A DNA stretch of 64,000 bases from Adenophora triphylla var. japonica. Lineage: Eukaryota > Streptophyta > Magnoliopsida > Asterales > Campanulaceae. The stretch lies in NCBI GenBank assembly GCA_022495995.1, contig JAFEMH010002098.1:1-64000 (forward strand), given 5' to 3'. Shown piece by piece: positions 12,346-63,264 of this stretch. Position numbers and translations under genes: made by a program. Below the pieces are notes generated by a model. It ran no database searches. It was not told the origin of the DNA and saw only the letters and a list, made by a program, of their open reading frames with translations. The first letter of the stretch is position 1; each line of letters opens with the position of its first letter.

Positions 12346-12482
12346 ATGTCTTCTTTCCTTAGAAACTTAACAAAAAAACGGGTAGCAAGAGCAAAAACAA
12401 CCAACCTTCTTCATCTTCTCGACTACCACCACCACCACCACCACCACCAATTCCAAATGATATTCCCTTTTATGATGGGGGA
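12346..12482 (+). pseudogene. Probable original N-terminus of the hAT transposase, one frame off
   Basis: An ATG at 12346 begins MSSFLRNLTKK and runs into a seven-A tract at 12372-12378. After the tract the frame used by the 12483 ORF reads GSKSKNNQPSSSSRL, eight prolines and IPNDIPFYDGG straight into its methionine with no stop. Adding one A would join them, so the ancestral protein probably started at 12346 and a one-base loss, or a sequence error in the homopolymer, separated the parts. If real, translation would start at 12483 and lose a short basic, proline-rich leader. Confidence 0.6.
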
Positions 12483-14672
12483 ATGGCGGGGAGAAATGAA
12501 TGGGAAAATTTAGAAGATGAGGAGGAGGTTCAAGTTGGAGACCAACAATTTCCAATACCGCCTTTCATGTCACAAGAACCACAATATGTAGGAACTCCAA
12601 GTGCTGAAGAAAGTGATGCACATAACCTACCACCACTTGCACCAAGAGGAAGGGGTCGCGGTCTTCGTGGAGGCGGTCGACAAGGTCAACCGCCTTCTCC
12701 TAAAATTCGTGAACCGAAGTCCTCAATTTTTATTCGTCACTTTAGGAAGGAGCTCGGAGTGGACAAACATGGTGAGGAGGTTTGGAAAGTGATATGTAAC
12801 TATTGTGAAAATGTTTATACTTGGAAGGATGGCAATGGATACGGCACTTATACCAAGCATGTTCGAGTTCATCATCCTACCGAATTTGGCATAGATCCAA
12901 CTCAAACACAACTCCAAGGAGTTTCGACTTCTTCGATGGGCGCGATAGGTACGTCTTCTTCTTCCACTACATTTCATTATAGTGAACAAAACCATAGAAG
13001 AGGTATGGCAAAATTTGTTTGTGTTAAATGTCTTTCCTTTAGTTTTGCCGATGATGAATTCTATGAAGATTTTGCTAAACTCTCTCTTAACGCCGCTGCA
13101 AAAAGAATACCACGTAGAACTCTCACACGTGATATTGCAAAAATAGTCGGGGAATATAAATATGGTTTAATACAAACATTTGCTAATTTATCTCAACAAG
13201 TTTCTATTTGTTCGGATATATGGAGTGATAACCGTTGTGAACATTTTTATATGGGAGTAACTTGTCATTGGATTGACAATTCTTGGACCATTCAAAAGAG
13301 ATTGATTGCATATAGAGATTTTGATGATGAGCATACCGCACACAATATTGCACTTAAATTACAAAGTATTTTACAAGAATATAATTTAGTTACTAAAATT
13401 TTTTCAATGTCTTTTGATAATGCTAGCTCTAATACTGCAAGTTTATCGGAACTAATTGGTATTTGTAAATCGGTATTAGGTGGAAAATTTTTTCATATTA
13501 GATGTTTTTGTCATATTTTAAATTTATGTGTGCAAGATGGTCTATCTGCTTTACAAGATTCAATTATTCCTATTAAACGAGGTATACAGTTTATTATGAG
13601 AAAAAGTTCCAATCAAAGAAAATGGAGAGACTATTGCAAGGCAAATGATATCCGTCCCAAAAAAATTTCAATGGATGTTACAACTAGGTGGAATTCTACC
13701 TATAAACTTTTAGCGGATTCTTTTCTTTATAAGGAACAAATTTGCTTGTTTTTGTCTTCCGTTGGTTACAAATACCCCCTATTTCCTCATCAATGGAATG
13801 CTTGTGGAAGCATGATCAAATTGTTGAAAAATTTCAAGGATGCCACTGTCATGTTATCCGGTACGTATTATCCTACTTCTAACTTAGTTGTTGATCATAG
13901 TACTATTATTTCGGGTACATTTTGTGAATTTAAAGATGATCCCATAATTGGTCCAGCCATTGTTAGCATGAAGGAAAAATGGTTGAAATATTTTGAGACA
14001 ATTCCAAGTATTTTTTTAATTGCAAAAATTTTAGATCCAAGGGTTAGAATGGATGGTTTGGAACAACTTCTTACATATTACTATCAAAATTTGTTTGATG
14101 CAAATGATCCCCGTTTTCCAAATATTGATCAAATATTGTCTGATGCGAAAAATGAATTTTTAAATGTTTTTAAAGAGTACAACTCAATTTATGGTGGTGC
14201 TAGTACAAGTGAGGCTCCTCCTCGTCAAACTAGCGAAACGGACAACTCTTTTTTGACTTCTTTTTATGGAAATAGAAAACGCTCTAGAGGAAGCGGTTCT
14301 AATGCGGAATTTGAAAAATATTTGAACACGGAATTTGAATATGATGATGAGGTTGAATTTTGCATTTTACATTGGTGGGCCAAGAGGGCGAGTTCTTATC
14401 CTATTGTTTCTAGGATAGCAAGAGAAATATTTGCTTCTCCCGCATCAACGGTTTCGGTTGAGCACGCTTTTAGCATTGGTGGAAATATTGCGGATCCGCA
14501 ACGTGCAAATTTAACTGTTGAAAATTTAGAAAATCAAAATTTGTTGAATGATTGGGTCAAAGCGGAGAAAAGAGATCAAGAGCCAAAGTTTTCCTCATCC
14601 GATGAAGATTTCTTTGATTCAACATCGGGAAGTGACGAGAACAATGACACAATCCCAATGGCCCAAATGTAA
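12483..14672 (+). CDS. hAT transposase, BED zinc finger type
   Basis: A 729-codon ORF encodes a cut-and-paste transposase that would bind the element ends and excise the DNA in the nucleus. Residues about 81-131 form a BED finger (CNYC at 105-108 with the histidines of KHVRVHH). The catalytic core has CSDIWSD (D245), SFDNASSN (D312), the CFCHILNLCVQDGL insertion-domain motif, MDVTTRWNSTYKLL and a late glutamate in STVSVEHAFSIGG. The hAT dimerisation region (WWAKRASSYPIVSRIAREIFASPAS) is present. Start: the ATG at 12483 is the first in frame, but coding sequence clearly extends upstream; see the 12346 entry. No internal stop is present, so activity is possible but unproven. Confidence 0.9.
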   Translation: MAGRNEWENLEDEEEVQVGDQQFPIPPFMSQEPQYVGTPSAEESDAHNLPPLAPRGRGRGLRGGGRQGQPPSPKIREPKSSIFIRHFRKELGVDKHGEEVWKVICNYCENVYTWKDGNGYGTYTKHVRVHHPTEFGIDPTQTQLQGVSTSSMGAIGTSSSSTTFHYSEQNHRRGMAKFVCVKCLSFSFADDEFYEDFAKLSLNAAAKRIPRRTLTRDIAKIVGEYKYGLIQTFANLSQQVSICSDIWSDNRCEHFYMGVTCHWIDNSWTIQKRLIAYRDFDDEHTAHNIALKLQSILQEYNLVTKIFSMSFDNASSNTASLSELIGICKSVLGGKFFHIRCFCHILNLCVQDGLSALQDSIIPIKRGIQFIMRKSSNQRKWRDYCKANDIRPKKISMDVTTRWNSTYKLLADSFLYKEQICLFLSSVGYKYPLFPHQWNACGSMIKLLKNFKDATVMLSGTYYPTSNLVVDHSTIISGTFCEFKDDPIIGPAIVSMKEKWLKYFETIPSIFLIAKILDPRVRMDGLEQLLTYYYQNLFDANDPRFPNIDQILSDAKNEFLNVFKEYNSIYGGASTSEAPPRQTSETDNSFLTSFYGNRKRSRGSGSNAEFEKYLNTEFEYDDEVEFCILHWWAKRASSYPIVSRIAREIFASPASTVSVEHAFSIGGNIADPQRANLTVENLENQNLLNDWVKAEKRDQEPKFSSSDEDFFDSTSGSDENNDTIPMAQM

Positions 14673-21762: not shown

Positions 21763-22043
21763 TACTCCCTCCGACCCATAACAAGCGACACACTTTGCCA
21801 TTTTGGGCTTCCCACTGATAAGTCACATTTTCTAAAATGAAAAAGAATCTTTACTATTTCCTACACTCATTCTCTCTCCTACATTATTATAATACTAACA
21901 ACACCATTATAATTTACTATTCTCTCCACTCATTCTCTCTCCTACTCAACTATCTACATTCATAACACATCAACCTTTTCACTTTTTTCTTAATTATTGT
22001 GCGAAACAGTAACTGCGTCGCTTGTTATGGGATGGAGGGAATA
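21763..22043. mobile_element. Stowaway-type MITE
   Basis: TA-CTCCCTCCGACCC at the left and GGGATGGAGGGAA-TA at the right are the inverted ends of the Tc1/mariner-derived Stowaway group with a TA target duplication. The inner ATAACAAGCGAC and GTCGCTTGTTAT extend the inverted repeat. Confidence 0.85.
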
Positions 22044-23994: not shown

Positions 23995-24830
23995 TGATGA
24001 GCCCGGATCTACCTGGAACGCCGCGCTGATCTAGCCCAAGGAACCAAATGACGCAAGTAGCCTAGATCACGGAGGGAAGACCGCGGACAAATAGGCCCTT
24101 GTGGTCAAGATCGTGTCCCTCCTCGGATCATCCTCTTCGAGGACCATTGGGACCCTGCTCGCCGGATCCGTGCCCGCATGAGTCATGCCCGCATCAACCG
24201 TGCTCGCGTCATATATCTTTGACTGCGGGCACAACGTTGACCGCGGGCACATCTCTTTCCCGGTTAATGTCGAAGCCTTGCGAGCAAGTTAGCTTGCGCT
24301 CGACGAGGCGGCTCAGGCTCCCCAATCACGCGTTGATGCGGCTCGATCCCGGCGCCTACTATTCCATTTAATGCAATAAAAGCGGCTACACGGCTCGTGT
24401 CCCTTTCGGCCATGTCCCTGACACGGTCAATGTTCCCTCACTGACGAGGACCCAATTAGGCTGCGGACACGTGTAGCTGGTCAAATACCAAAGTGCCCTC
24501 TAGGGCTGATCTCATTGCTTACCTCAACAAGCACCATGGCATTGCCTATAAATAGAAGGCCTTTACCCCCTTGGGCAAGGTAAGTTCCATATACAATTAA
24601 GTAAGCTCTTTTACTCTCTACACCTAAACACACACACTCCAAAGGTATTCAAAGCCTTATTACTTTCAAATTATTCTTACTCACACCCGAGGGCCCGAGT
24701 TGGAGTAACATCCAACTTCGACCTTAACGGTGCTTGTTTGTGTTGTGATCTAGGTACACAAATCCACCAAATATATCCTAGCCAGATATCCTTGAACCGC
24801 TCCTGACCCCGAAAAGCTGTGGCGTCATCA
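23995..24830 (+). mobile_element. 5' LTR of the 13-kb Tat element
   Basis: 836 bases from TGATGAGCCCGGATC to GGCGTCATCA. It contains a TATA box (TATAAATAG, 24547-24555). The 3' 370 bases are almost identical to the other LTR, while the first 450 differ by several substitutions and short indels. Confidence 0.95.
24547..24555 (+). promoter_or_regulatory. LTR TATA box
   Basis: GCCTATAAATAGAAGG lies in the 5' LTR with an exact copy at 36727-36735 in the 3' LTR. Transcription would start about 30 bases downstream. The copy in the 3' LTR points outward toward the host protease gene about 980 bases away. Confidence 0.8.
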
Positions 24831-29790: not shown

Positions 29791-30948
29791 ATGTCCGCGA
29801 AATACCTCGTCCTCGATGGGGTGCTTTTCGAGCGATCATTCACCAAGCCTTTACTAAGATGTGTTAAGACTCACATGGTCACCAACTTACTCTACGAGGT
29901 TCAGCGAAGGAGTTTGTGGCGGACATCCAGTGCTCGCACCCTCTCGGACAAGATCAAATTCCAAGGATTCTTTTGGCCCACAATGAGAAGGGATGCGCGG
30001 GAGTATGTTAGAAAATGTGATAAGTGCCGAGAGATTTGCGGACATCCCTAGACTACCATCAACGGAGCGAGACTTTGGTAGTACCATCGTGGCCGTTTGA
30101 TACGTGGGGGATAGATCTTATTGGACCATTTCCAATCGCTAGAGGAAGCATCAAGTATCTTTGTGGTGGCCGTGGATTATTTTACCAAGTGGACGGAAGC
30201 AAAGGGCTTGGCCACTATTTCCGAGGATAACACTATCAGGTTTGTCCACGACCACATCTATTGTCGATTTGGGGTTCCCCGAGCAATAATTTCAGATAAT
30301 GGCACCCAATTCTCCGCAAAATTCACTGCGGAATGTGTGAGAATGAAGGTGCAACACCGTAAGTCCGCAGTTGCCTATCCTCAGGGAAATGGTCAAGCTG
30401 AGGCTGCGAACAAGCTAGTCCTAACTGCCTTAAAGAAAAATTTGGAAGGACGAGGAGGACGTTGGTTGGACGAGCTCCAGATCGCATTATGGGTTGTCCG
30501 CACCACGATAAGAAATTCAACAGGAGAAACTCCCTTCTCGCTCACGTATGGGTCAGAGGCAATGGCTCCAGTGGAGGTAGCCCTACCCTCGTACAGAGTC
30601 ACATACTTCGACGAGTCTCAAAACGAGGCAAACAGAAGATGTGACCTGGACGATCTCGAAGGAAAGAGAATGCGGGCACACGAAAAAATGGTGAACTACA
30701 AACAGAAAGCGAAGAAGCACCATGATAAAAGAGTAAATAAAAGGAGTTTTTCAGTTGGAGACTGGGTACTCAGAAGCGTAGAGGTCCAAGGGACCCAACC
30801 TGGTTTCAACAAGCTGTCCCCGAAATGGGAAGGTCCATATGAGGTTACAAAGATAGTCAAAGAGGGCACCTATATGTTGCGACCAAAAGAGGGAGAAGAG
30901 CTTAAGCACTCCTGGAATAGCGACCACCTTAAGAGATACTTCTTTTGA
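29791..30948 (+). pseudogene. Integrase of the 13-kb Tat element
   Basis: An N-terminal part (29791-30051) has FWPTMRRDAREYVRKCDKC, but the zinc-binding histidines expected before it are lost. After a frame change, 30121-30948 is open for 275 codons. It carries VVAVDYFTKW (first D), IISDNGTQF (second D), GNGQAEAANK (E), LALWxxRTT-like and TPFSLTYGSEA motifs, a basic C-terminal domain (SVGDWVLR, PKWEGPYEVTKI) and a natural end, HSWNSDHLKRYFF-stop. The DDE triad is intact in this piece; the missing N-terminal zinc site makes full activity unlikely. Confidence 0.85.
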
Positions 30949-36176: not shown

Positions 36177-37008
36177 TGATGAGCCCGGATCTCTGGATCC
36201 AGGGCCGCGCTCGGTCTAGCCCAAGGAACCGGTGACGTGGCGGTTCCTAGACATTTGGAGGGAAGACCGCGGACAATAGGCCCTTGTGGTCAAGATCGTG
36301 TCCCTCCTCGGATCATCCTCATCGAGGACCATTGGGACCCTGCTCGCCGGATCCGTGCCCGCATGAGACATGCCCGCATCAACCGTGCTCGCGTCATATA
36401 TCTTTGACTGCAGGCACAACGTTGACCGCGGGCACATACTGCTTCCCGGTTAATGTCAAGCCTTCTTGAGCAAGTTAGCTTGCGCTCGACGGGCCACTTG
36501 CCGGCTCCCCATCACGCATTCAATGCGGCTCGGTCCGCGCCTACTATTCCATTTAATGCAATAAGCCGGCTACACGGCTCATGTCCCTTTCGGCCATGTC
36601 CCTGGACAGTCAATGTTCCCTCCCGACAGACCCGATTAGGCTGCGGACACGTGTAGCTGGTCAAATACCAAAGTGCCCTCTAGGGCTGATCTCATTGCTT
36701 ACCTCAACAAGCACCATGGCATTGCCTATAAATAGAAGGCCTTTACCCCCTTGGGCAAGGTAAGTTCCATATACAATTAAGTAAGCTCTTTTACTCTCTA
36801 CACCTAAACACACACACTCCAAAGGTATTCAAAGCCTTATTACTCAGTATTCTTACTCTCACACCCGAGGGCCTGAGTTGGAGTAACATCCAACTTCGAC
36901 CTTAACGGTGCTTGTTTGTGTTGTGATCTAGGTACACAAATCCACCAAATATATCCTAGCCAGATATCCTTGAACCGCTCCTGACCCCGAAAAGCTGTGG
37001 CGTCATCA
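36177..37008 (+). mobile_element. 3' LTR of the 13-kb Tat element
   Basis: 832 bases, TGATGAGCCCGG to GTCATCA, followed by the CTAAT duplication at 37009. The TATA box is at 36727-36735. Confidence 0.95.
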
Positions 37009-37716: not shown

Positions 37717-39099
37717 ATGGCTAGATGTTCTTCCTTACTTGTCATCATGTTCATGTTGCTAACCTCTCTTTCTCTATCAACACAAAGAACCCACAAGCCA
37801 AAACACTCAAAACCATCTTCAAACAACTCATCTTTATCTCTCTCCTTCTCTCTAACCTCTATTTCTCTCTCTAAACACTCCTCCAAGTCAATGTTTCTCT
37901 CCTCTCTCGCTTCATCGCCACTACACAAAGCCCAAAATGGTAAATTCAAAAAGACATCATCACCACCATCATCATTGCCTACATACAACTTCAAGTCGTC
38001 TTTCAAGTATTCAATGGCTCTGATTGTTTCCCTACAAATAGGGACCCCACCTCAGACTCAACAAATGGTACTGGATACTGGGAGTCAGTTATCATGGATC
38101 CAGTGTCACAACAAGGCCCCAACTAATCCACCTCCAACGACGTCGTTTGATCCTTCACTTTCTTCATCTTTCTCTATCCTCCCTTGTTCTCATCCTCAAT
38201 GCAAACCGCGAAATCCCGATTTTACCCTCCCTACTTCTTGTGACCAAAAACATTTGTGCCACTACTCTTACTTTTATGCTGATGGAACTTTGGCTGAGGG
38301 AAATTTGGTACGAGAAAAATTCACACTTTCTAGTACCCAAAGTACCCCTCCTTTGATTCTTGGTTGCGCTACGGATTCCGACGAGGCCGAGGGTATTTTG
38401 GGAATGAATCTTGGACGGTTGTCATTTGCCTCACAAGCTAAGGTCGCCAAGTTTTCTTATTGTGTACCTATTCGCCAAAAGAATGCCCAAATAAAGCCTT
38501 CCGGGTCATTTTACCTAGGCCAAAATCCAAACTCCAACACATTCCAATACATTGACATTTTGACTTTTCCGGAAGGTCAACGCATGCCCAACTTTGACTC
38601 TCTAGCTTATACAGTTGGCTTGTCCGGAATCAAAATCCGCGGGAAAAAGTTGAACATACCAGAATCCGTATTCCGGCCTGATGCTAGCGGTTGTGGTCAA
38701 ACAATGATCGATTCTGGCACTGAGTACACGTACTTGGTTGAAGAAGCCTACACAAAGGTGAGGGAGGAAATCGTGCGACTAGTTGGACCGAAATTAAAAA
38801 AGGACTACACTTATCAACAATCAATGGATATGTGTTTTGATGGTAACGCGATGACGATCGGACAATTGATAGGGGACATGGCGTTAGTGTTCGATAAAGG
38901 TGTGGAAGTATTAATACAAAAAGAAAGAATTTTGGACGACGTTGAAATCGGAATCAGTTGTTTTGGAATCGGACGATCTGATTCATTAGGAATACCGGGT
39001 AATATTATTGGAAATTTTCATCAGCAAAATCTATGGGTTGAATTTGATATGACCAAAAGGAAAGTAGGGTTTGGGAAAGCAGATTGTAGCAAAGTGTAG
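37717..39099 (+). CDS. PCS1-like: A1-type aspartic protease, PCS1-like
   Basis: An intronless 460-residue ORF. Residues 1-24 (MARCSSLLVIMFMLLTSLSL...) form a signal peptide, so the enzyme enters the secretory pathway. A serine-rich propeptide-like stretch runs to about residue 90. The first catalytic motif is VLDTGSQLSW (D120) and the second MIDSGTEYTYL (D332); both aspartates are kept. HLCHYSYFYADGT is the flap (tyrosine). FSYCVP, SGSFYLG, YTVGLSGIKIRGKKL and IIGNFHQQNLWVEFD are typical of the atypical plant A1B proteases related to Arabidopsis PCS1 and its homologues. The frame is open 15 codons upstream, but the ATG at 37717 has a good AGCCATGGC context and starts the signal peptide. The gene is complete, with no break. 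Substrate is unknown. Confidence 0.93.
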   Translation: MARCSSLLVIMFMLLTSLSLSTQRTHKPKHSKPSSNNSSLSLSFSLTSISLSKHSSKSMFLSSLASSPLHKAQNGKFKKTSSPPSSLPTYNFKSSFKYSMALIVSLQIGTPPQTQQMVLDTGSQLSWIQCHNKAPTNPPPTTSFDPSLSSSFSILPCSHPQCKPRNPDFTLPTSCDQKHLCHYSYFYADGTLAEGNLVREKFTLSSTQSTPPLILGCATDSDEAEGILGMNLGRLSFASQAKVAKFSYCVPIRQKNAQIKPSGSFYLGQNPNSNTFQYIDILTFPEGQRMPNFDSLAYTVGLSGIKIRGKKLNIPESVFRPDASGCGQTMIDSGTEYTYLVEEAYTKVREEIVRLVGPKLKKDYTYQQSMDMCFDGNAMTIGQLIGDMALVFDKGVEVLIQKERILDDVEIGISCFGIGRSDSLGIPGNIIGNFHQQNLWVEFDMTKRKVGFGKADCSKV

Positions 39100-39880: not shown

Positions 39881-39885
39881 TAGTA

Positions 39886-40163
39886 TACTCCCTCCGTCCC
39901 GCTAATAATCGCACCGTTACTGTTTGTGCGGGGATTAAGAAAAAAAATAATGATATAAATGTTGTGAGTGTAAAAGTAAAATAGGAGAGAGAATGAGTGG
40001 AGGGAATAGTAAATTATAATGGTGTTGTGAGTATTAAAATAATGTAGGAGAGAGAATGAGTGGAGGGAATAGTAAAGATTCTTTGCCATTTTAGGAAGTG
40101 TGCGATTTGTAATGGAACACCTAAAATAGAAAGTGTGCAATTTGTAGCGAGACAGAGGAAGTA
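39886..40163. mobile_element. Stowaway MITE 2
   Basis: TA-CTCCCTCCGTCCCGCTAATAATCGCAC at left and GTAGCGAGACAGAGGAAG-TA at right. The body contains the CACTCATTCTCTCTCC-type core, here in reverse, shared by most Stowaway copies in this window. Confidence 0.85.
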
Positions 40164-40217: not shown

Positions 40218-40505
40218 TACTCCCTCCGTCCCGCTAATATTAGCACACTTTCCTTTTTGGGCGTCCCGCTAATATCCGCACACTCCCAAAAAGGAAACTT
40301 TATATTAATAAAATATTCACCCAACCCCACTCATTCTCTCTCCTACATTATTTTAATACTCACAACACCATTATAATTTATTATACCCTCCACTCATTCT
40401 CTCTCCACTCATTCTTTTACACTCACAACATTTTATTAAAATATCATATTTCTTAATTCCCGCGCAAACAGTGTTTGTGCTAATATTAGCGGGACGGAGG
40501 GAGTA
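40218..40505. mobile_element. Stowaway MITE 3
   Basis: Near-perfect ends CTCCCTCCGTCCCGCTAATATTAGCAC and GCTAATATTAGCGGGACGGAGGGAG with TA duplications. The best preserved copy in the window. Confidence 0.92.
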
Positions 40506-41373: not shown

Positions 41374-41659
41374 CTCAAAACACATCGGACATACTTTCAA
41401 AATGACGTTCTTAATTTTATTTTATTTGTTATTTTAAATAATTCCAAGTTATTTTAATAAAAATTAAAAATTTATTATTTCTTGTATCTATAATGATTTA
41501 TTGATAACATTATTAAAATTTTCTTAAATTATTAAATTAATATAAAAGTTTCACCCTAAATTACAACAAAAAGTGATAACATCATTAAGTGCCTTATTAT
41601 TTCAAAGAAGTGTTTAACAACATAATTTTTATAATTTTTATAGCTTTTTTTTTTTAGCT

Positions 41660-42000: not shown

Positions 42001-43489
42001 GTTATAAATTATTAGTACTGTATCATCATTACATTATTATTGATTAACTAACGGTTGAATCACTTATGATAAACAATGTGGTATACAAAAGTGATACATG
42101 TAATCTTGACTCAAGATAAACACAAACTTTAAAAATAATATTTCGTGATTAAAATAGAAACATAAATTAAATATTATTTTGTTTTCAAAAAATGAAGTAT
42201 AAAATATAGTCTCTGTTGAATAAAAACAAGTGTCACATTATAGTAAATATGAGACATAGAAAAAAATTAAATCATTGGGCACAGCTGGTTCAAAACAAAA
42301 AAAAATAATAATAATTAAAATAGCTTTAGGCTAATTACAAAAAGGTTAGATTAATAGATTTGTCTCGAGAAGTCCACATAATTTCCCTTTACCTTTTTAG
42401 CAAGGCAAGTTTCATTTTCTTATCTAAATCCAAACATACCAAACACACACACACACACACACACGTTATTCAACCGGGATCACTTTCCATAATTTAATCA
42501 AACGCCGACGCCTTTTTGAAAATAATATTAATCAAAAGAAGTAATTTAAATTATAAATTAAAAGTAGTCATCCACTATGCGACCGATTTTGAGATATTTC
42601 CCTTCTCACATTGAAAATGTGTAGGAATTTGATAAGATCTATAAAATGCTCATACACTACTAATAATAATCAAATTATTCATTAAATTTTTGGAGGTGTG
42701 TGATGGGCTGTGAATGATCTAAATGAGAATGAGTTTAGTTGGCTAGTGTGTGATGCCTGCATAAGAGTGGAACATCGGGCTCGAATTGTTACAGATTTGC
42801 TGTTGTATTTCAATGGCAGATAAAAATTATCACAAATCGTTTTTAAGATAGATAAATATTATTTCATTTAATCAGTATTGGACGCTCATATATTATCAAT
42901 TAATATCAAAATAGGATAATATTAAAAAAGCAATTGAATCGAATCTTTATTTGCTTCATAATAAATCATTCGATGAAAACAGTTTCAAATCAAATTAATT
43001 AGCTAATTATATGGGAGCGCTAGAATCTAATATCTATGCAAAAATATGGCCCCTCTCGCCGACCCATTTTTTTTGGTTTCAACTTTCAACACATAAATTT
43101 CCAAGTAAGTTTTTTTTTACCATCTCTTTCTTGTTTGTTTATGTTTGGTCGGTGGGAAAGTCTTAAGAAGTCAAATCCAAATTTTACGTAACTTGATACT
43201 CCTAGTCCGTCTTGTCCCGATAACTTAACGCAAACATATTTTGATTAATAATTTTATTTTGATTAAATTAGACTATAGCATTTATAATAATATATTAATG
43301 ACAAAATTTAAATTTTCATTAGGATAGTTGAATCAACTAAAATTATTGTTTAAATTATTTTCGTTTTAACGACAAAAAATATAGGAAGATTATTTATTAC
43401 AATTCCTTTTTCAAATTTCAAACATCTAACACTAATTAAAGTGAATGTATAGTTAATTACTTATGACGCCATCGTTTCCTCCTAAATGA
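42001..43489. other. AT-rich intergenic DNA
   Basis: No gene recognised. Contains a short (CA)n run at about 42446-42463. Confidence 0.45.
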
Positions 43490-44839: not shown

Positions 44840-45490
44840 TAAATATGGTATAGAAAGAAAAAAAAAAAAAGAGAAGTGTATTTATTTTAATCAACCTTAT
44901 CCAAGTTTTCTTATGCCTTCCCCTATCCCTCATCATTTTATAACTTTTTCACTCTTCTTCGGACTTTCTAAATTCTAATATGTTTGTGAATCCGTTAATA
45001 ATTTTTATTTTACTTTTACTATGCGCAATACTTTAATATCATACAATTTTTTTTTTCTAATTTTGTGTCAAACTTAAAATATAATTCGGTACCAATAATT
45101 AGGAGCACTATGCTTTGAAGTTAATGTTTTTTTTAAAAAAAAAAACTTTGAATTTTTATTTTTCTTTTTCTCCTTTTATTACTTTACGAGTATTTTTTTT
45201 CATTTTTTTAATATGGAGCATGAATAGATATGATCCATATGAAAGCCCATTTATCCGCAACTCCCCACTAAGAAAACTAGGGTGACCCTATTTTAGAAAG
45301 ATTCCCCTAAATTTCATGATGAACACCCTCTACTTTGCAAATTTATAAAGCCTTATAATTTTTAATTATTTTTTCAGTTTCAAAAAATTCAACAAAAAAA
45401 ATTAAATTTGTTTTAATTTTTAAAAAATATTTGTTTGAACATTTATTTAGAGACGGAGTAAATATTTAATTTTTTAATTCTACAATAATG
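44840..45490. other. AT-rich intergenic DNA
   Basis: No gene or defined repeat ends seen. Confidence 0.4.
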
Positions 45491-45493
45491 AGT

Positions 45494-45539
<46 letters not shown>
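45494..45539. repeat. (GA)n microsatellite
   Basis: About 46 bases of uninterrupted AG repeat. Confidence 0.9.
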
Positions 45540-45541
<2 letters not shown>

Positions 45542-45832
45542 TGCAATATTGAAAATCGAAAAATAACCACGCACCAGGAAATAATCTACATATACAGAAC
45601 ATAGCTTATAGAGTTGTAATTTTGTTGTTATATTTTACTACAATAACAATAAAACAACAACAACAAAATAAAATAAAACAACAACAACAAAACGTTAGTT
45701 ATAAAATAATTTGAAGTTAACTAACATGAATCTTAAATAAATAGAGTATTCCCTCCATCTAAAAAATGGTATCACAATTGACTTGTAAATGATTTTAAAT
45801 AATGTGTTTTACTCCTATTATGTGCTAACTTG

Positions 45833-47489: not shown

Positions 47490-48059
47490 TACAAAAATTA
47501 ATGGAAAAAATTAGTATAATAAGTGTTGTGAGTATGAAAAGTGAGGTAAAAGAGAGAAAGTGTGGTAGGAAATAGTAAGTGGATAGATGATGTGAGTATA
47601 ACAAGTAGATCTAATAAATAAACAAGTATTAAAAACATTTCTTTTTGGGACTGTGCATTTTTGTAATGAAATATCAAAATTGAACTTTTATTTCTTTTAT
47701 AATGAGACAAATAGAGTACTCCCTCCGTCTCAGCGGAGTGTGGATTTTTGGTCAATCTTGATCAACTTTGATCACTAATTTAAATAAATAATAATGATCC
47801 TAATAAAAATTCAAAAAATGTTATTTTTAATATTATCACTAGTACAGATTTGATCTTAGGAATCGCACCTTAGATAGCGCTTTTAAAAAGCGCTATCTAA
47901 GATGTAAACTTACATAGCGCATCCACAACTTTAAATTTAATAATCAAAACAAAAAATTAAAAAAAAAAAAAAATTAACTAAGATAGCGCATATTAGGAAA
48001 ACGCTATCTTAGTGGAATCTTGCAAAGCGTTTAATAGAAGCGTTGTCTTTGAAAACGCT

Positions 48060-48520
48060 TCCTAAGTTTCTTTCTATACTCCCACATCTCCTCCAGGCGT
48101 AATCTATTTCCGTCGTTCTCTCTCCTCTCTCTCTCTCTCACACACACTCCCTCTCTTTCAGCCCTTCCTCTGCGCCGTTCTCTCTTCGTGCGCCTCTCCA
48201 GATCTCGAGCTCCTCACATCTTCGATCTCCACCGAAATCTCGAGCTCCTCACATCTTCGATCTCCACTGGAATCTCTCCTTTCTCGGGCATCCTTCCGAC
48301 GCAAATTCAGGTACCGGCATAACCACCATCGCCATCGTCAAGGTCGTGAAGGTAAGGCTTTACTCTAAATCTCTCGAGTTGTGATTTCAATTTCACCATT
48401 TTCCCCCAAATTCAACCTTTTTCGAACTCAAAATTAGGGCTTCAAAGCAGGTTTAAATGTTTAATGTCGGCGTTGGCAGATTAACCGGACCAGCATCGAC
48501 GAAGGAGGAGGTATGTTTGA
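48060..48520 (+). other. Promoter/leader-like sequence in the CACTA element
   Basis: A CT-rich sequence resembling a plant 5' UTR, with a duplicated ATCTCGAGCTCCTCACATCTTCGATCTCCAC (about 48201 and 48237). A near-consensus splice donor (GTGAAG-GTAAGGC, GT at 48351) follows, and a second exon-like piece ends GGAGGAG-GTATGT near 48513. It could supply transcription to the captured exons downstream. Confidence 0.5.
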
Positions 48521-48874
48521 TGTGCCTGCCATATCTAAATGAATTACTGGACATGGTTCTGATTTATTTACTTCAACAATAAGGATGCTTATCCCCCCCT
48601 CACTCATTTATTGTTCGGCAGTCTTCTATGAAGTTGAATGAGTAAAGTTTTGTACTTATATGTTTTGTTTTTATTATTTTCTTTGGATTCCTCATAATCC
48701 TTACACACCAGTATCATTCTTGTTTCAGTAATTATGTTGTAACTCTTTAATGTGTCTTTTTCCCTTTGATTATTTCTTTCGTTGTGATACATTTGGCTCT
48801 CTTGGCCCTTTCTGCCTTTTGACCATGCTTTGTTTTGACCTAGGATGATCTTTACTTGTTTTTCTATACTGCAG

Positions 48875-49213
48875 GGTTGTGCAATATGCTTACTTCTTGC
48901 TGCTGGATGGGCTTGTGCAGCGTATGTCAGGTATTAAACCGGGTGACCACAATGGTGACAATGTGTCATTTGCTTAAAGATTCATTGTGTGTTGTATTCA
49001 GTTTATTGCATAGTCATTTGGTTTAACATTTTATTTCTTATTACTGAAACAGAGAGATAAAACTGATCAAGCACAGTATGAAACGTGGCAATAGTTTTGC
49101 ATTTCTTTGTCGCGATATCCAAGACCTTGAGCATTCTAAACAGGTCAAATTGCTCAAGTCATTTGGCTCAACACTAAATTCTTGGATTAAGCAATTGTAT
49201 GAGGCCAAATTAG
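48875..49213 (+). pseudogene. Captured fragment of a ceramide glucosyltransferase gene
   Basis: Two exon pieces flank a normal intron. Exon 48875-48930 reads GCAICLLLAAGWACAAYVR, matching the N-terminal membrane segment of plant glucosylceramide synthase. The next, from 49053, reads EIKLIKHSMKRGNSFAFLC and DIQDLEHSKQVKLLKSFGS, matching the region after it. The expected PRVTVVMP catalytic-domain lead-in is missing, and the following NWRSQ part is degenerate before a stop at 49228. The parent enzyme adds glucose to ceramide in the Golgi/ER. Identification is by memory of the plant family. Confidence 0.7.
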
Positions 49214-49681
49214 GTGATATCCACTCTTGATATCATACTGGATTTGACGTAATTTCTTTTAGCTTGTCGCACTTGCACCCAAAGCTTCCTATAGACATGC
49301 TGATCTTTTCATTACCAATGAACTGTGGCATAAAATCAAAATCAAGTAGTTCATTGGGTTGATATAACTACCTCCAATGTTGTATCGCTGGATACGAGAA
49401 TCACAATATTAGTGGCTAGCAGTTCTTGATATTGGACTTCTCAGTCCAATGCAATAGAAGTAAAACAACTGGTAAATTTAATATAGAATTTACTGATTTC
49501 CACAAATGGTCTGCCTTTTCTTCGTACTTTGTTTTTACGAGTGGACATCAAGTGTGTAGGTCAGTCCAGTTCGTGTTTTGAGTATTTCTATTTAAGTATG
49601 CTTTTAAGCCAGAGAGTTGTGCAGATTGAACGAGAAAAGCATAGTGATTTGTATTGGGTTTTTGTAAACAGTGATTTGCAG

Positions 49682-49788
49682 ACTATGTTGGTCTACCTTG
49701 CCGGATAGTGCGAGGATGCAAGTATTGTGTTGAAGACCATAGGTCTTCATGTGTTGTTAAAGATTGAAGATGACCAGAATGTGTCAAG
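49682..49788 (+). pseudogene. Captured exon of a Raf-like (CTR1/EDR1-type) protein kinase gene
   Basis: After a TTTGCAG acceptor the exon reads DYVGLPCRIVRGCKYCVEDH and RSSCVVK, the signature of the EDR1/CTR1 regulatory domain upstream of the kinase in plant Raf-like MAPKKKs. One extra A then shifts the frame; the other frame continues KIEDDQNVSR, as expected, to an AAG-GTCAGT donor. It contains only a piece of the regulatory domain and no kinase. Confidence 0.7.
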
Positions 49789-50052
49789 GTCAGTATGCAA
49801 TTATTGTATTGCGGGTCTTAGTGTCTTATATCTACCTTTGCTCGTCTCTTTAATTAAATTTTTCTGTAGTGTACTCTTGAGAATTGTTAAAGAAGATGTT
49901 GGAATGTGTCATTTGGAGATGGTTGGGCAGAAATTATGTCTCTTGAAACAGAGAAATATTATTTTTGATAAATGCTTACATGGCTGTAACTACTACTTTG
50001 ATGGATGACCTCTTTAAATTTGTTCTGATTTTTTTCAATTTCTACTTATTAG

Positions 50053-50737
50053 GTCATATGTTCCCTCAATGACGCTGAACAAGATGTGAGTCCACTTGAA
50101 TTTGATCCTTTTCACTATCAGAAATAGCAAATTAAAGCAGAGAACGCATTATTTTTGCATTTACTGATGTGTTTTTTCAATCTCTCACAGGTTTAACAAA
50201 ATTGTTCAAGTTGTGGGGTTTACATGGGAAATTACTTCTGTGCGAAATGTAAATTCTTCGATGATGATGTGAGCTTTTAACTTCTGCTTTCGTTTCATTT
50301 TCTGTTCATCTCATTTGAGCAATTATTTGGTTACCTAATGTAGTATTATTTTGTGGAATATTTTAGGTTTCGAAGAAGCAATATCACTGTGATAAGTGTG
50401 GGATATGCAGGTGAAAATTCTCAATCTATATAATGGTCAGGAAATCAATATATACGTGAAAGTTTCTCTCCAGACTCATGTTTTTTGTGTTATGGTTGCT
50501 TATGCAGAACTGGAGGGAAGGACAATTTCTTTCACTATGATAAGTGTGGTGAGATAAAGATATTGTTTACGATAAATTACTCGTTATTTTTAAAGGTCTA
50601 TTGTTTCTAATACAATAACTGAGTTTCTGAATTCATTGCCATTTCATGGTATAGGATGTTGCTACTCATAAGAAGTGAAAAATGCACACAGGTGTGTGGA
50701 AAGGGCAATGCACCGCGACTGCCCTGTTTGCTTTGAG
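50053..50737 (+). pseudogene. Captured fragment of a CHY-zinc-finger/RING E3 ligase gene
   Basis: Five exons with introns kept: 50053-50085 (VICSLNDAEQD), 50191-50268 (QNCSSCGVYMGNYFCAKC, FFDDD), 50367-50410 (VSKKQYHCDKCGIC), 50508-50548 (TGGKDNFFHYDKC) and 50655-50737 (CVERAMHRDCPVCFE). These match the CTCHY part and the start of the RING of plant MIEL1/RZFP34/RCHY1-type ubiquitin ligases. Two in-frame stops break it: TAA for the first Q of VQQNC and TAA in CYS-stop-EVKN. The N-terminal CHY zinc finger and the rest of the RING are absent. It lies after the kinase exon in the same orientation. Confidence 0.85.
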
Positions 50738-50815
50738 GTATACATTAAATATAAAATTCATCAATTTTCTTCTCTCTCCTCATCACCATCCCTTCACCCC
50801 TGTAAGTTACCCATT

Positions 50816-50817
<2 letters not shown>

Positions 50818-50886
<69 letters not shown>
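50818..50886. repeat. (CT)n(CA)n compound microsatellite
   Basis: About 53 bases of CT followed by 16 of CA, inside the captured gene's intron. Confidence 0.9.
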
Positions 50887-51319
50887 TAGCACTCAGTTTG
50901 TTTGTTTATTTCTTGAGTTCACGAATTCCATCCTGCCATAACATGTTTAAGGTTGTCATCTTTTTTTGGTTTTGTGGTTGTTATCGAATAATTGTCTTAC
51001 GCTTGCAAATTCGTTAGTTTCTTGACTCTTTTACGATGTTTGTAGATTTCACCCACATACAAATGTTTGTCAATTTGTTTCTTTCTCTTTTTCACGCACA
51101 CATACACACACTGCTGAGATTTGTGTAATTTCTTTAAGCTCGGATATTAATTCATCAATAACTTCAATTTAGATTTTTGAATTTCATGTTTAATGCTATT
51201 TTTGGCATGGCTGAGTTCATATTTTATGATTTACTGCTGTTGAATTTTCAGATTTGATGAACAAAATACATGATATTTGTAGATTGTTTGTAATATTTGC
51301 TCTATGTGGGTTGTGCAGA

Positions 51320-51531
51320 TTCCAGAATGCGATAGAGAAGGCAAAGAAGATGACAAATCACTAGGGCGCAACAGCTTCAAAACAACTCCATCGGAATGTA
51401 CCGACACAGGCTACACCCACCGGCCCACCCCTCCACCAGCACTCTTCCCACATAGGCAAATCGTCGAACAGGAAACGGGCAGAACACAACGATGGCGTTT
51501 CTGGCAGCAACGATCGTGGGATCTCGTGTAA
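51320..51531 (+). pseudogene. Last exon-like segment in the CACTA element, unidentified
   Basis: After TGTGCAG the frame is open to 51531 (ending WRFWQQRSWDLV). Another frame reads NRKRAEHNDGVSGSNDRG. It is GC-richer than its surroundings and probably a further captured exon or the terminal exon of the chimeric transcript. I do not recognise it. Confidence 0.35.
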
Positions 51532-52282
51532 CAAATGTTGGAATGACTCAACATTATCAGACACCAAGTATTGGAATTGCTAATCTTTGGCGGTTCTTCA
51601 TTCTTGATGCCTATTAATTAGACTGGGAGATTCTTTGGTTTGTTTAAATTTTTTATCTAAGTTTCATGTTGTGCGACGGGTGTTAGACTAGTTAGTTTGT
51701 AACTCTTGTGGATGATTGTAAGAATTATTATTGGTGTAATAAATGAATGGTTGATTGTTATTGTTGAATGAAATGTTTTTAGTTCATATTAATTTTTATT
51801 TATTTGATTTCTTGATTATAATGCATATAATTTGAAATGGTGCAACAGGAAAAAAAATTAAAAAAATACAAAATAAAAAATGAAAAATAGCCTTAGATAG
51901 CGTTTTTTAAGCGCTATCTAAGCTTGATTTTTATAAAAAAAATTTGCTTATATAGCACTTAAAAAACGCTACCTAAGATGATTTTTTAAAATAAAAAAAG
52001 TGCTAAGATAGCGCTTTTTAAAAGCGCTATCTAAGTTTAGGAGCTTAGATAGCGCTTATACAAGCGCTATGCTAACTTGCATAGCGTTAGCTTAGATAGC
52101 GCTTATAAGCGCTATCTAAGCTAAAAAAAAGCGCTATCTAAGCTCAAATTTGTACTAGTGTATTAAGCGTGATATAATAACAAATTTTTAAATTTTTATT
52201 AGAATTATTATTATTTATTTAAATTAGTGATCAAAGTTGGTTAAGGTTGATCAAAAATTCACACTCCGAGACGGAGGGAGTA

Positions 52283-54213: not shown

Positions 54214-55996
54214 CACTACCAGAAAAACAGGTTTTAGCGGCGAAAATTTCCGTCGCTAAAGCCAAATTTCCGTCGTTAAAATTAAACACCGACGGAAAAA
54301 TACCGTCGCTGGTCCGCCGCTGTGTTCCGACGGCTCAAATTCCGCCGGTATATTTTGATTTTACCGACGGAATTAATTATGTCGGTGATTTTTTGACATC
54401 AGCGACGGAAATTTTGCCGTTAAATCAATTTAATTTAATTTTCATTTCAGCGACGGAATATTCCGCCGGTGAAATAAAAATTTAATTTAAATTTTATTTT
54501 CAGCGACGGAAATTTCCGTCGCTGAAATAAAAATTAATTAAATTAAATTAGTTTCAGCGGCGGAAATTTCCGTCGCTAAAATAAAAATTAATTAAAATAA
54601 ATTATTTTCAGCGGCGGATATTTCCGTCTCTGAAATTAATTTATTTTAATTAATTTTTATTCCAGCGACGGAAATTTCCGCCGCTGAAAATAAAACTTAA
54701 ATTAAAATTAATTGATATAGCGGCGAAAATTTCCGTCGCTGGAATAAAAATTAATTAAAATAAATTAATTTCAGCGACGAAAATTTCCGTCGCTGATAAT
54801 GAAATAAATTAAAAAAAATAATTTAAAATATCAATTAATCAAATTTTTTTGTACCTGATATAACAATTCAATTTATAAAACTAAAACTATAAAACTAAAA
54901 ACCAAATATTAGCGTACCAAACTAAAGACTAAATATCACCGTACCAAATCGGGAGGGGGGAGAGGGGGGAGGGGCTCCCGCGGGTACCAAATATCTCAAA
55001 TGTTTACAAACAAGTATAAAATAGTACAAACAAGTCTAAATTTCAGTCAGTTTTTTAACGTTTTCAGTTAGTTTTTTAGAATTTCAGTCACTTTTTTAAC
55101 CTTTTCAGTTAGTTTTTTAACGTTTTCAGTTAGTTTTTCAAAATTTCAGTTAGTTTTTTGAAATTTCAGTCAATTTTCTAACGTTTCAGTTAAATTTTTT
55201 AATGTTTTCAGTTAGTTATTTTGTTAATTAGTTCTAAAAATAATTAAAAATTAATTTTATAATCAGCGACGAAATTATTCCGTCGCTGACAAATTAAAAA
55301 TAACTAAAAATTAAATTTTATAATCAGCGATGGAATATTTCCGTCGGTGATAAATTTAAAAAAATTAATTAATCACCCGACTTACATACTTCACACTTTC
55401 TATTTTGGGCGTACAATTACATACTTTACACTTTGTTTCTTTACCCAAAATGGAAAGTTTTTATTATTAAAAAATTAACCCTACCCCACTCATTCTCTCT
55501 CCTACATTATTTTAATACTCACAACACCATTATAATTTACTATTCCCTCCACTCATTCTCTCTCCTATTTTACTTTTACACTCGCAACATTTATATCATT
55601 ATTTTTTTTCTTAATCCACGCGTAAACAGTAACTGTGAACTATGTAAGTGGACGGAGTGAGTATATATTTAATTTTTACCGACGAAATTATTCCGTCGCT
55701 GATTAAAAAAATAAAAAAATAATAACTTTCCACCGACGGAATAATTCCGTCGCTGATAAAAATATAGCGACGAAATATTCCGTCGGTAAAGTTGACGCCA
55801 ATTTAGTGGCGGTAAATAAACGAATATTCGAAGAATATTCGTTTTAGCGACGGAATTTAGCGACGAAAATAAATTCCGTCGCTAAATTTGACGCCAAAAT
55901 TATTTCGTCGCTATAGCATAATTTTCGTCGCTATTCAGCGACGGAATGCTTCCGTCGCTGTTGTTTCCGTCGCTAAAACACCAGTTTCTGGTAGTG
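54214..55996. mobile_element. Non-autonomous CACTA element, 1.8 kb
   Basis: Ends CACTACCAGAAAAACAGG-type (54214) and CAGTTTCTGGTAGTG (55996), with AAT duplications at 54211-54213 and 55997-55999. Nearly the whole element is made of GCGACGGAAATTTCCGTCGC-like palindromic subterminal repeats separated by AATTAATTTTAATT spacers, plus a CAGTTAGTTTTTTAACGTTTT repeat at about 55040-55215. No transposase. It inserted into the right arm of the inverted-repeat element. Confidence 0.92.
55370..55663. mobile_element. Stowaway-like insert inside the CACTA element
   Basis: The right end GTAAGTGGACGGAGTGAG-TA and the left CGACTTACATACTTCACAC are inverted but diverged. The interior has the CCCACTCATTCTCTCTCCTACATTATTTTAATACTCACAACACC core found in the other Stowaway copies, especially that at 40218. 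Confidence 0.7.
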
Positions 55997-59439: not shown

Positions 59440-62400
59440 GGCAAAAGGCCTTGGCCTTGGCCTTGGCCGGCCTTGGCCTGCCTTGGCCTTGGCCGTGGCT
59501 CGGCCTTGGCCGTGGCCTGTAGGAGGAATTATCCCACATTGGTTTCAAACAAAACATAAAATGTTCTCCCCCCTATATATTGCTGAAGCTGTCCTTGGTC
59601 TTACCATTGTGGCCGGCCGTGGCCTATGCACATGGCCTTGGCCTTCGCCCATGACCTCGCCCTTGGCCTCGAATTGGATCGGGGCTCCGATTGGGTAATT
59701 TAGGGTCGGATTCGGGTACGGACTAAGTATTTGGGTCGGATCCGAATAAATCAATAGTTGAATTTTTTTGTAAAAGGACTAATTTGAAAAAATTAAAGAC
59801 CTTTATTTAACTCTTTATCCGGATAAAAAACCAAAATTTGTTAATTATTTTCTCTTAAAGTGGAGATTTATTTTAATTGATTTGAAAAAAAAAAAAAATT
59901 CGTTTAAATATTAATTTATTAATTATACTTAACTAATTTTTCAATTTTTTTTTATTACAAATTATTTAATACTGAATTTTTTTTTTTAATTTTAAATCAT
60001 AATAAAAAATATTCTAATTTTTTAATTTTTTTTTATTTCATTTTCCACCTAAATTCATAATTTTTTTCTCTTTACATAGATACTTCTTTCATTTGATTTG
60101 GACAAAGAAAAATAATTTCCTATTTTAAATATAAATTTGTTAATTATCCTTTCCTATTTTTTTTTATTTCTTTTCAGTGAAAATTACTTAAATTTGAAGT
60201 AAATATTTTAAATATAAATGATATTAATAATAATAATAATTATATACTAAAAAATTTAATATAATATAAAATAAAAGTGATGGGGTATAGGATGATTAGT
60301 TTGAATGGTTTTGAATATGTATAATCATTTTAAATTGATAACAAATTATTTATTTCAAAATAATAAATTTAAATTTGTCAACATATTTCATAAATTTATA
60401 TATATATCCAAAAAATATTGCCCCTTATTTTTATTATGTGTCAAAAAAGAAATATTTTTTATACAGAATATAAAATATAAATATTAAGATATTATTTAAT
60501 TGAATTTTTTTTTTTTTAAATTGTACTTGGACTTGGGCCTTGGCCTGGGACTTGGCTCGGCCGTGGCTCGGCCGTGGCCTTGCTTTGGCTCGACCTTGGC
60601 CGGGCATGGCCTTGGCCATGTGGCCGTGGGAGTTATCCCACATGGAAAAATAATCAAAAGAAAATGGGTTGCCTAGGTATATAATGGCTCATTATATACC
60701 AAGTCAATTTTTCATTCTTTTTTTCTCAATGTGGGAAATCATGCTTCGCCTTGGCCCTTGGCCCTTGGTTATATAATGAGGTTTAAGCCAAGGGGATTAG
60801 GCATTGATATTGGCTGGCTTGGCCATTGGCCGGCCATGGCTTAGGCCTACACTTAGGATTATTTTTCATATAATAAATAATTTCAAATAGTTTCAAATAA
60901 TAAATAATTTCAAATAATTTCCAATAAAAAGGAATTGAAAAATTAGTAAAGGATAATTAACAAATTTATATTTAAAAGATGAATTTTTTTATTTGTACAA
61001 ATGAAATGAGAAAGAATACAAAATAAAATAAAAGTGATGGGGTATAGGATGATGAGTTGAAATGATTTTTAATATGTATAAAAAAAAACATTGTGTATTT
61101 ACAAAGTATATATGATTATTTAATATAATATATATATACATATATATATATACATATACACATATATATATACATATATATATACATATACATATATATA
61201 TACATATATATATATACATGTATATATATATATATACATGGCGGAGTGTGATGAATGTGGATATGAGTTTCTATTTAATAAGTGGGTTGGGGTAGGATTT
61301 GATGACTGAGTGTAGTGTTTGGGGAATTTTTTTTCATTTAACGTAATTGTTAGTATTTTTTCGGATGATGAGTTGGAATGGTTTTGAATATGTCTAAACA
61401 AAATTGTCTTAATATTTATTTTGAGAAGGAGAGTGTAATAATTTTAAATTGGTAACAAAATATTTATTTTCTGTAGGAGGGTATATCAAGATGCTATTTA
61501 TTTGTCACAATAAAGATTTCAAAATAATAATTGAAAATTTGTCAAAATATTTTATAAATTTATATATAAATCCAAAAAATATTGCCCACTTATTTTTATT
61601 ATGTGTCAAAAAAAAAATATATATTTTATACAAAACAAAAATTCTAATATTAAGATATTATGTGTCAAAAATAAATAATATTTTTTCATACAAAATAAAA
61701 AATATAATATTTAAGATGCTATTTTATTTGAAAAAAAAAATAAAAAAAATTGAAATGCCTTGCCCTTGGCCGGACTTGGCCTGCCTTGGCCTTGGCCTTG
61801 GCCTGCGTTGGCCGGCCGTGGCCTTGGCCGTGGCCTGTAGGAGGAATTATCCCACATTGGTTTGAAACAAAACAAAAAATGTTCTCCCCCCTATATATAG
61901 CTGAAGCTGCCCTTGGCCTTACAATTTCGGCCGGCCGTGGCCTATGCACATGGCATTGGCCTTAGCCCACGCCCTCGCCCTTTGCCTCGAATTGGATCGG
62001 GGCTCCGATTGGATAAATTTGGGTCGGATTCGGGTACGGACTAAGTATTCGGGTCGGATCCGTATAAATCAATTGTTGAAATTTTTGGTAAATGGACTAA
62101 AAAAATTTGTTAATTATTTTCTCTTTAAGTGGAGATTTATTTTAATTGATTTGAAAAAAAAAAAAATTTTTTGTATAAATATTAATTTATTAATTATACT
62201 TAACTAATTTTTCAATTTTTTTTATATTAAAAATTAATGAAGTATGAATTATTTTTTTTAATTTTAAATCATAATAAAAAATATTCTTTTTTTTTTTATT
62301 TCATATTTTCACCTAAATTCATAATTTTTATCTCTTTACATAGATACTTCTTTCATTTGATTTGGACAAAGAAAAATAATTTCCTATTTTAAATAAAAAT

Positions 62401-63060
62401 TTGTTAATTATCCTTTCCTATTTTTTTTATTTCTTTTCAGTGAAAATTACTTAAATGTGAAGTAAATATTTTAATTATAAATGATATTAATAATAATAAT
62501 AATTATATACTAAAAATTTTAATATAATATAAAATAAAAGTGATGGGGTATAAGGGTGATTAGTTTGAATGGTTTTGAATATGTATAAACAAAATTATCT
62601 TAATATTTATTTTGGAAATGAGATTGTAATCATTTTAAATTGATAACAAATTATTTATTTCGGATGGGAGGATATATCAAGATGCTATTTATTTGTTAAA
62701 ATAAATATTTCAAAATAATAAATTTAAATTTGTCTAAATATTTCATAAATTTATATATATATCCAAAAAATATTGCCCCTTATTTTTATTATGTGTCAAA
62801 AAAAATTATATTTTTTATACAGAATAAAAAATATAAATATTAAGATATTATTTAATTGGAAAAAAAAATTTTGAAATTGGACTTGGACTTGGGCCTTGGC
62901 CTTGGACTTGGCTCGGCCGTGGCCTTGCCTTGGATGGCCGTGGCCTTGCTTTGGCTCGACCTTGGCCGGGCATGGCCTTGGCCATGTGGGCGTGGGAGTT
63001 ATCCCACATCGAAAAATAATCAAAAGAAAATGGGTTGCCTAGGTATATAATGGCATATTC
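59440..63060. repeat. Duplicated CCTTGGCC-rich block
   Basis: Two copies of the same order, about 2.3 kb apart: a CCTTGGCC block with AGGAATTATCCCACATTGG (59440-59690; 61755-62000), then GGGTCGGATTCGGGTACGGACTAAGTAT (59703; 62023), an AT-rich stretch ending CCAAAAAATATTGCCCCTTATTTTTATTATGTGTC (60410; 62764), and a second CTTGGCC block with GTGGGAGTTATCCCACAT (60530-60640; 62880-63010). A third partial copy of the AT-rich part lies at 61020-61740. Reading frames through the GGCCTTGG runs are repeat artefacts. Confidence 0.75.
61128..61240. repeat. (TATATACA)n low-complexity repeat
   Basis: Alternating TATATA and TACATA units over about 110 bases. Confidence 0.85.
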
Positions 63061-63264
63061 CTTATAATTTCTTTTTTAAATTGATAAAATACTACAGAAT
63101 TGTATCTAAAGAAATGCATATTCCTTATAATTTCTTTTTTATTTTATTCTTTTTTAATTTTTATGTACTGACAATGTAGTCTTTAAGAAAGTATTCCATA
63201 ATGTATAAATTAATTGAGTTCTTGATTTATTTTATTTTAATTTTTGTCTTTTAAATAATAATGT

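Follow-up and report, generated by a model that had tools for sequence, protein, structure and literature searches.

The DNA examined here, 64,000 nucleotides of the plant Adenophora triphylla var. japonica (positions 1 to 64,000, forward strand, of contig JAFEMH010002098.1; hereafter the window), contains at 47837..52160 an element of 4.3 kb with matching CACTA ends, TAT flanks and subterminal repeats. Within these ends lie pieces from at least four unrelated plant gene families, in one orientation and with introns retained between exon parts. We hold it to be very probable that this is a non-autonomous CACTA transposon of the Pack-CACTA or Tgm-Express kind, which has captured pieces of host genes and most likely has no selected function today. 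A previous sequence-only reading of the window had proposed a CACTA element bearing fragments of three unrelated host genes. Its ends and TAT duplication were placed correctly, and its three exon groups do match three different families, with no sign of a single host gene of origin or of a lack of family matches; its count of three genes, by contrast, has to be raised to at least four, as an IRKI/GIL1-like piece is added.

The borders come first. The element, whose orientation on the forward strand is set by its gene pieces, starts with CACTAGTACAGATTTG at 47837 and closes at 52160 with what reads CACTAGTACAAATTTG on the other strand. Its terminal inverted repeats (47837..47866 and 52131..52160) are identical at 15 of 16 positions over 16 nucleotides and at 25 of 30 over 30, and the two copies of the TAT target-site duplication lie directly outside them (47834..47836 and 52161..52163). 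Next to each repeat, at 47867..48070 on the left and 51876..52130 on the right, are subterminal repeats made of palindromes of the AGATAGCGCT / AGCGCTATCT type, centred on these motifs on the left. The 8-mers AGATAGCG and CGCTATCT, six copies each, all belong to the element and are absent from the rest of the 64 kb window; a window-wide count of the 12-mers TAGATAGCGCTT (3 copies) and AAGCGCTATCTA (5 copies) likewise places them within the element only, and the 6-mer AGCGCT is present ten times within it and once elsewhere, at 43016. CACTA...TAGTG ends with inverted repeats, a 3-bp duplication and structured subterminal repeats at both ends are thus all seen, as in the CACTA (En/Spm) superfamily. 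A scan of the window for such ends (CACTA..TAGTG, at least 12 of 16 positions matching, equal 3-bp flanks) produced two candidates, 47837-52160 and 54214-55996, while 200 mononucleotide shuffles of the window produced 0.22 on average and never more than 2. Since the shuffles also reach up to two candidates, the scan by itself is weak evidence, and it is mostly the agreement at 15 of 16 positions, together with the subterminal repeats, that lends the CACTA ends their weight. When the window was searched for the end pattern, only the two ends of the element were exact, and four matches were found at up to three mismatches for a chance expectation of 2.12. The other candidate, at 54214-55996, is a CACTA-like element of another family, with ends CACTACCAGAAA (12/16), AAT on both sides and many CAGCGACGGAAATTTCCGTCGCTG-type palindromes; its part 55486-55665 has an inverted copy at 39884-40063, 92% complementary.

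The element sits within a Stowaway-like miniature inverted-repeat transposable element (MITE), a nesting that adds to what the sequence-only reading had described. The left half of this MITE (47719..47836) has a TA flank and a CTCCCTCCGTCTC end; the right half is at 52164..52280. When the flanks are rejoined with a single TAT, they make up a hairpin of 235 bp that is flanked by TA at either side, ends in CTCCCTCCGTCTC and folds end to end, its 84-nt inverted arms being 90% complementary. The Stowaway family has an end motif of the CTCCCTCCGT type, and the interrupted MITE displays this type of end together with the TA duplication and a hairpin across most of its length. As the MITE was split by insertion, the borders of the CACTA element are clear, and as the latter sits between two halves of one MITE, its insertion is the younger of the two events. 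One could imagine, instead, a decayed host locus with flanks that resemble CACTA ends by chance, without any capture by a transposon, and the end scan alone, with its 0.22 chance candidates per shuffled window and at most 2, would accommodate this. Yet the ends agree at 15 of 16 positions, the subterminal repeats stand at both ends but are absent from the rest of the window, and the MITE is split precisely, with a 3-bp duplication and with joined flanks that restore an empty MITE site, so that we give such a locus almost no credence. Searched against the window (E 0.001), the rejoined MITE finds itself and a weak match at 41430-41546 (72% over 122 columns). Further CTCCCTCCG / CGGAGGGAG motifs resembling the ends of the split MITE are located at 21765, 23718, 39888, 40220 and 47223 on the forward strand and at 40494 and 40981 on the reverse strand; some adjoin repeats common to 21.8, 40.3, 47.3 and 55.4 kb, and these sites are probably other MITEs.

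The first of the gene pieces, all of which are on the forward strand, derives from a ceramide glucosyltransferase (GCS) and consists of two exon parts, 48875..48930 (GCAICLLLAAGWACAAYVR) and 49053..49213. Translated from the first part and on from position 49053, 77 residues match a Lupinus protein bearing the name ceramide glucosyltransferase (E 4.7e-15, 59% identity, 87% of the query), in a search where 3 proteins among 35 candidates reached E<=0.001. Alignment with proteins P0001-P0003 reveals a gap of eight residues in the second part, which leaves the reading frame intact, and one single-residue gap. The parental residues NR ahead of REIK can still be read in the DNA (AACAGAGAGATAAAA), with no AG immediately before them and a usable AG six bases further in; the piece thus appears to have lost the parental exon-2 acceptor. 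At its other side the match fades within the parental exon, at about 49205-49230, and donor 49214 is for that reason taken as cryptic. The statement that each fragment has intact GT..AG introns was consequently too strong: introns were indeed kept, but the GCS piece has apparently lost an acceptor and ends within an exon. A search of solved structures returned no relative of this piece (best E 0.68), so that its identity follows from the protein search. For the single EDR1/CTR1-domain exon (49682..49788) it is the Pfam match that identifies the piece, as solved structures again returned no relative (best E 0.92): the parental frame, read across the frameshift, matches PF14381 at 37.2 bits for a cut-off of 27. 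This one frameshift lies near the end of the exon, where the frame changes, and the raw frame runs into a stop.

The third piece, of a CHY-zinc-finger/RING E3 ligase, extends over 50053..50737 in five exons (50053-50085, 50191-50268, 50367-50410, 50508-50548 and 50655-50737). These match RCHY1 structures (7ynx_A, E 5.3e-20; 2dkt_A, 1.3e-16; 2k2c_A, 8e-15), from which the identity is taken, Pfam having given nothing above cut-off; two in-frame stops interrupt them. A DmmA-like Pfam match (E 0.008) was set aside at 16.5 bits for a cut-off of 27.4, as were zf-C3HC4_3 (0.073) and Csd6-like (0.22), which came from an intron read. The fourth piece, at about 50766-51545, had been missed and, judged by protein similarity, is IRKI/GIL1-like. 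It abuts the CHY piece within about 30 bases (50737 to 50766), since the end of its exon 1 (50766..50801, FLLSPHHHPFTP, compared by eye with protein P0125) begins at 50766. The donor reads CCT followed by GTAAGT, the intron (50802..51318) holds a (CT)n run at 50819-50870, and the start of exon 2 covers 51319..51545. This last stretch matches proteins P0124 (E 3.7e-14) and P0125 (E 1.7e-12), in a search with 2 proteins at E<=0.001 among 558 candidates: identity is 76% and 71%, respectively, over the first 41 columns and, after a frameshift that follows PTP, 73% with each protein over 37 further columns, read in the next frame. Splicing from GT 50802 to the AG before 51319 would join FLLSPHHHPFTP to IPECDREGKEDD, the counterpart in P0125 being, by eye, SLSPRQHLHPFTP joined to IQECEREGKEDD. 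A precomputed database label assigns the GIL1/IRKI C-terminal domain to P0124 only. A transposase remnant had been considered for this last exon, and the protein search indicated an IRKI/GIL1-like gene instead; a zf-XS Pfam match (0.07) was set aside.

Lesions are present in all four pieces. The three that the sequence-only reading had listed are real (the GCS deletion, the EDR1 frameshift and the two CHY stops), and the frameshift of the IRKI-like piece comes besides. The common orientation of the four is not in itself significant, its chance being 1 in 8 by our own estimate. As for a transposase of the element's own, none was reported by a Pfam scan, at E 0.05, of its 45 six-frame open reading frames (ORFs) of 40 or more amino acids, a scan of low power that also overlooked all four known pieces, since these are short, interrupted by introns or not covered by Pfam. 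Even so, the element has no frame of 150 codons, which excludes an intact transposase. Matches to DUF3915 (0.0049), SelP_N (0.0059) and zf-XS (0.046) among the 45 ORFs were set aside as chance, and scans of the window for Rfam families (at gathering scores) and for tRNAs found nothing.

Upstream of the gene pieces, the CT-rich leader with splice donors that had been described is indeed there, at 48070..48510 on the forward strand, with three candidate donors (48311, 48352 and 48511) and a 35-nt tandem duplication at 48202-48271. Its frames gave no Pfam match at E 0.1. When the element was compared with the window, a (CT)n match at 45489-45547 was found outside the element among the best 40 matches. 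All 10 donors used for the predicted transcripts pass the listing of splice-like sites, and 6 of the 9 acceptors pass a crude pyrimidine filter. Ordered splicing of the pieces was modelled in six combinations of leader and donor. If leader 48070-48510 stays in the transcript and splicing uses donor 49214, the longest predicted ATG frame has 118 codons and links GCS to EDR1, each in its parental frame; for the five other combinations the longest predicted frame has 80 codons and links the RING piece to the IRKI-like one. Judged by the anatomy of the element and by the soybean precedent discussed below, a spliced chimeric transcript would be plausible. A small chimeric protein as product of the element (leader with GCS and EDR1, 118 codons, or RING with the IRKI-like piece, 80 codons) seems to us very improbable. 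It is true that one ATG frame crosses GCS and EDR1 in parental frames, if the leader is retained and donor 49214 used, and that the GCS gap preserves the frame; but the 118-codon frame appears in only one of six combinations, with 80 codons as the longest in the other five, its ATG at 48457 would be intronic with donor 48352, donor 49214 is weak (score 5.0) and not parental, and agreement of frame at two joins is expected by chance about once in nine times, by our own estimate.

Several points speak against a captured and decaying passenger. The capture from parent genes is deduced from similarity to proteins of other plants. Among the nine acceptors, those at 49682, 50655 and 51319 fail the pyrimidine filter, and short transposase remnants may have escaped the ORF scan. 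P0124 and P0125, from which the IRKI/GIL1 name is taken, are themselves below the Pfam cut-off for the GIL1/IRKI C-terminal domain (26 and 23.5 bits for a cut-off of 27). The leader 48070-48510 and the stretches 49231-49681, 49789-50052 and 51546-51860 are without a match, hence unexplained. Finally, the frames of 118 and 80 codons may be taken as weak hints against pure decay, although each depends on particular splice choices and may be due to chance.

A role as RNA is the other function to be considered. In its simplest form, the element would be a source of small interfering RNAs (siRNAs) silencing the parent genes in trans. Four pieces resembling host genes lie next to palindromic subterminal repeats, which are potential hairpins, and the lesions speak against use as protein; gene pieces inside a transposon require no function, however, and we consider such a source unlikely. 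The sequence-only reading had preferred regulatory RNA on the strength of the lesions alone, and a neutral decaying passenger accounts for the same facts more simply; the predicted frames of 118 and 80 codons also tell somewhat against a role confined to RNA. A bolder form, where small RNAs or chimeric RNA from the element would lower several regulators at once and so tilt a pathway of cell death and immunity, strikes us as highly improbable. Three of the four parents, should they be EDR1, MIEL1-like and sphingolipid genes as their families suggest, would bear on cell death and immunity. For the element, the most likely reading is that of a decaying passenger from which chimeric RNA may arise. 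Its pieces would have been copied from DNA, not from mRNA, over several steps, between ends to which a transposase supplied by another locus of the genome could bind, and the assembled element would subsequently have jumped into the MITE. Transcription, were it to start in the leader or at a promoter nearby, would lead after splicing to chimeric RNAs, most of them with early stop codons.

Other features of the window may be recorded here. Direct-repeat pieces about 12.18 kb apart (24090-24830 and 36275-37008), 98-100% identical, resemble the long terminal repeats (LTRs) of a young Gypsy-type element, and an integrase-like ORF (30115-30948; rve at 29.1 bits, below the cut-off of 32.6) lies between these LTR-like repeats. 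An open frame of 769 codons at 12363-14672 contains the hAT transposase domains PF05699 and PF14372. At 37720-39099 there is an uninterrupted frame for a PCS1-like aspartic protease, for which 381 proteins passed of 7995 scored; the 120 of these 381 that were listed have 61-78% identity, none being near-identical, and many of the top ones are from asterids. The stretch 59447-63160 contains repeated blocks that lie 1.2-2.9 kb from one another, are mostly 76-95% alike and have GGCCTTGGCC-type runs.

Among known systems, the closest parallel is offered by Tgm-Express1, a CACTA element of soybean reported to contain exonic and intronic pieces of five genes and to give 12 chimeric transcripts by reverse-transcription PCR (PMC1947982). 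With 5.7 kb in soybean and 4.3 kb in Adenophora, the two are of similar size, and both assemble exon-intron pieces of unrelated host genes, five in soybean and at least four here (PMC1947982); they differ in the genes involved and in their site, a MITE in Adenophora and the intron of a known gene in soybean (PMC1947982). The Tpn1 family of Ipomoea nil is also related in kind, as a set of non-autonomous CACTA elements with host genic interiors, for which conserved terminal regions and an AT-rich duplication of 3 bp are described (PMC5105172). In its non-autonomous copies the inner sequence is said to be replaced by host genic regions, one copy making chimeric transcripts with DFR-B (PMC5105172). 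The likeness to Tgm-Express1 and Tpn1 is one of structure and content (PMC1947982, PMC5105172). Maize Pack-TYPE elements, of which Pack-CACTA is reported to have the most distinct loci, are proposed to capture genes by fusion of neighbouring insertions (PMC8903248); as in Pack-CACTA and Pack-TYPE elements generally, coding pieces of several loci are found here inside CACTA ends, with no transposase of the element's own seen in the scan of 45 ORFs (PMC8903248). A lettuce study notes that non-autonomous CACTA elements typically bear fragments of host genes in their middle regions (PMC8195511), and its LsC1 family, likewise non-autonomous, with a length of 3.9 kb, ends of 28 nt and a 3-nt duplication, resembles the present element by description (PMC8195511). 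Because Tgm-Express1, Tpn1 and Pack-CACTA already show them, neither the multi-gene content nor the idea of chimeric splicing is new. We can understand the Adenophora element, which taken alone changes no view, as one more clear case of the assembly of gene pieces by CACTA transposons, nested in a MITE, with four donor genes and with introns kept, and, should transcripts or small RNAs come to light, as a test case for whether captured pieces act on their parents.

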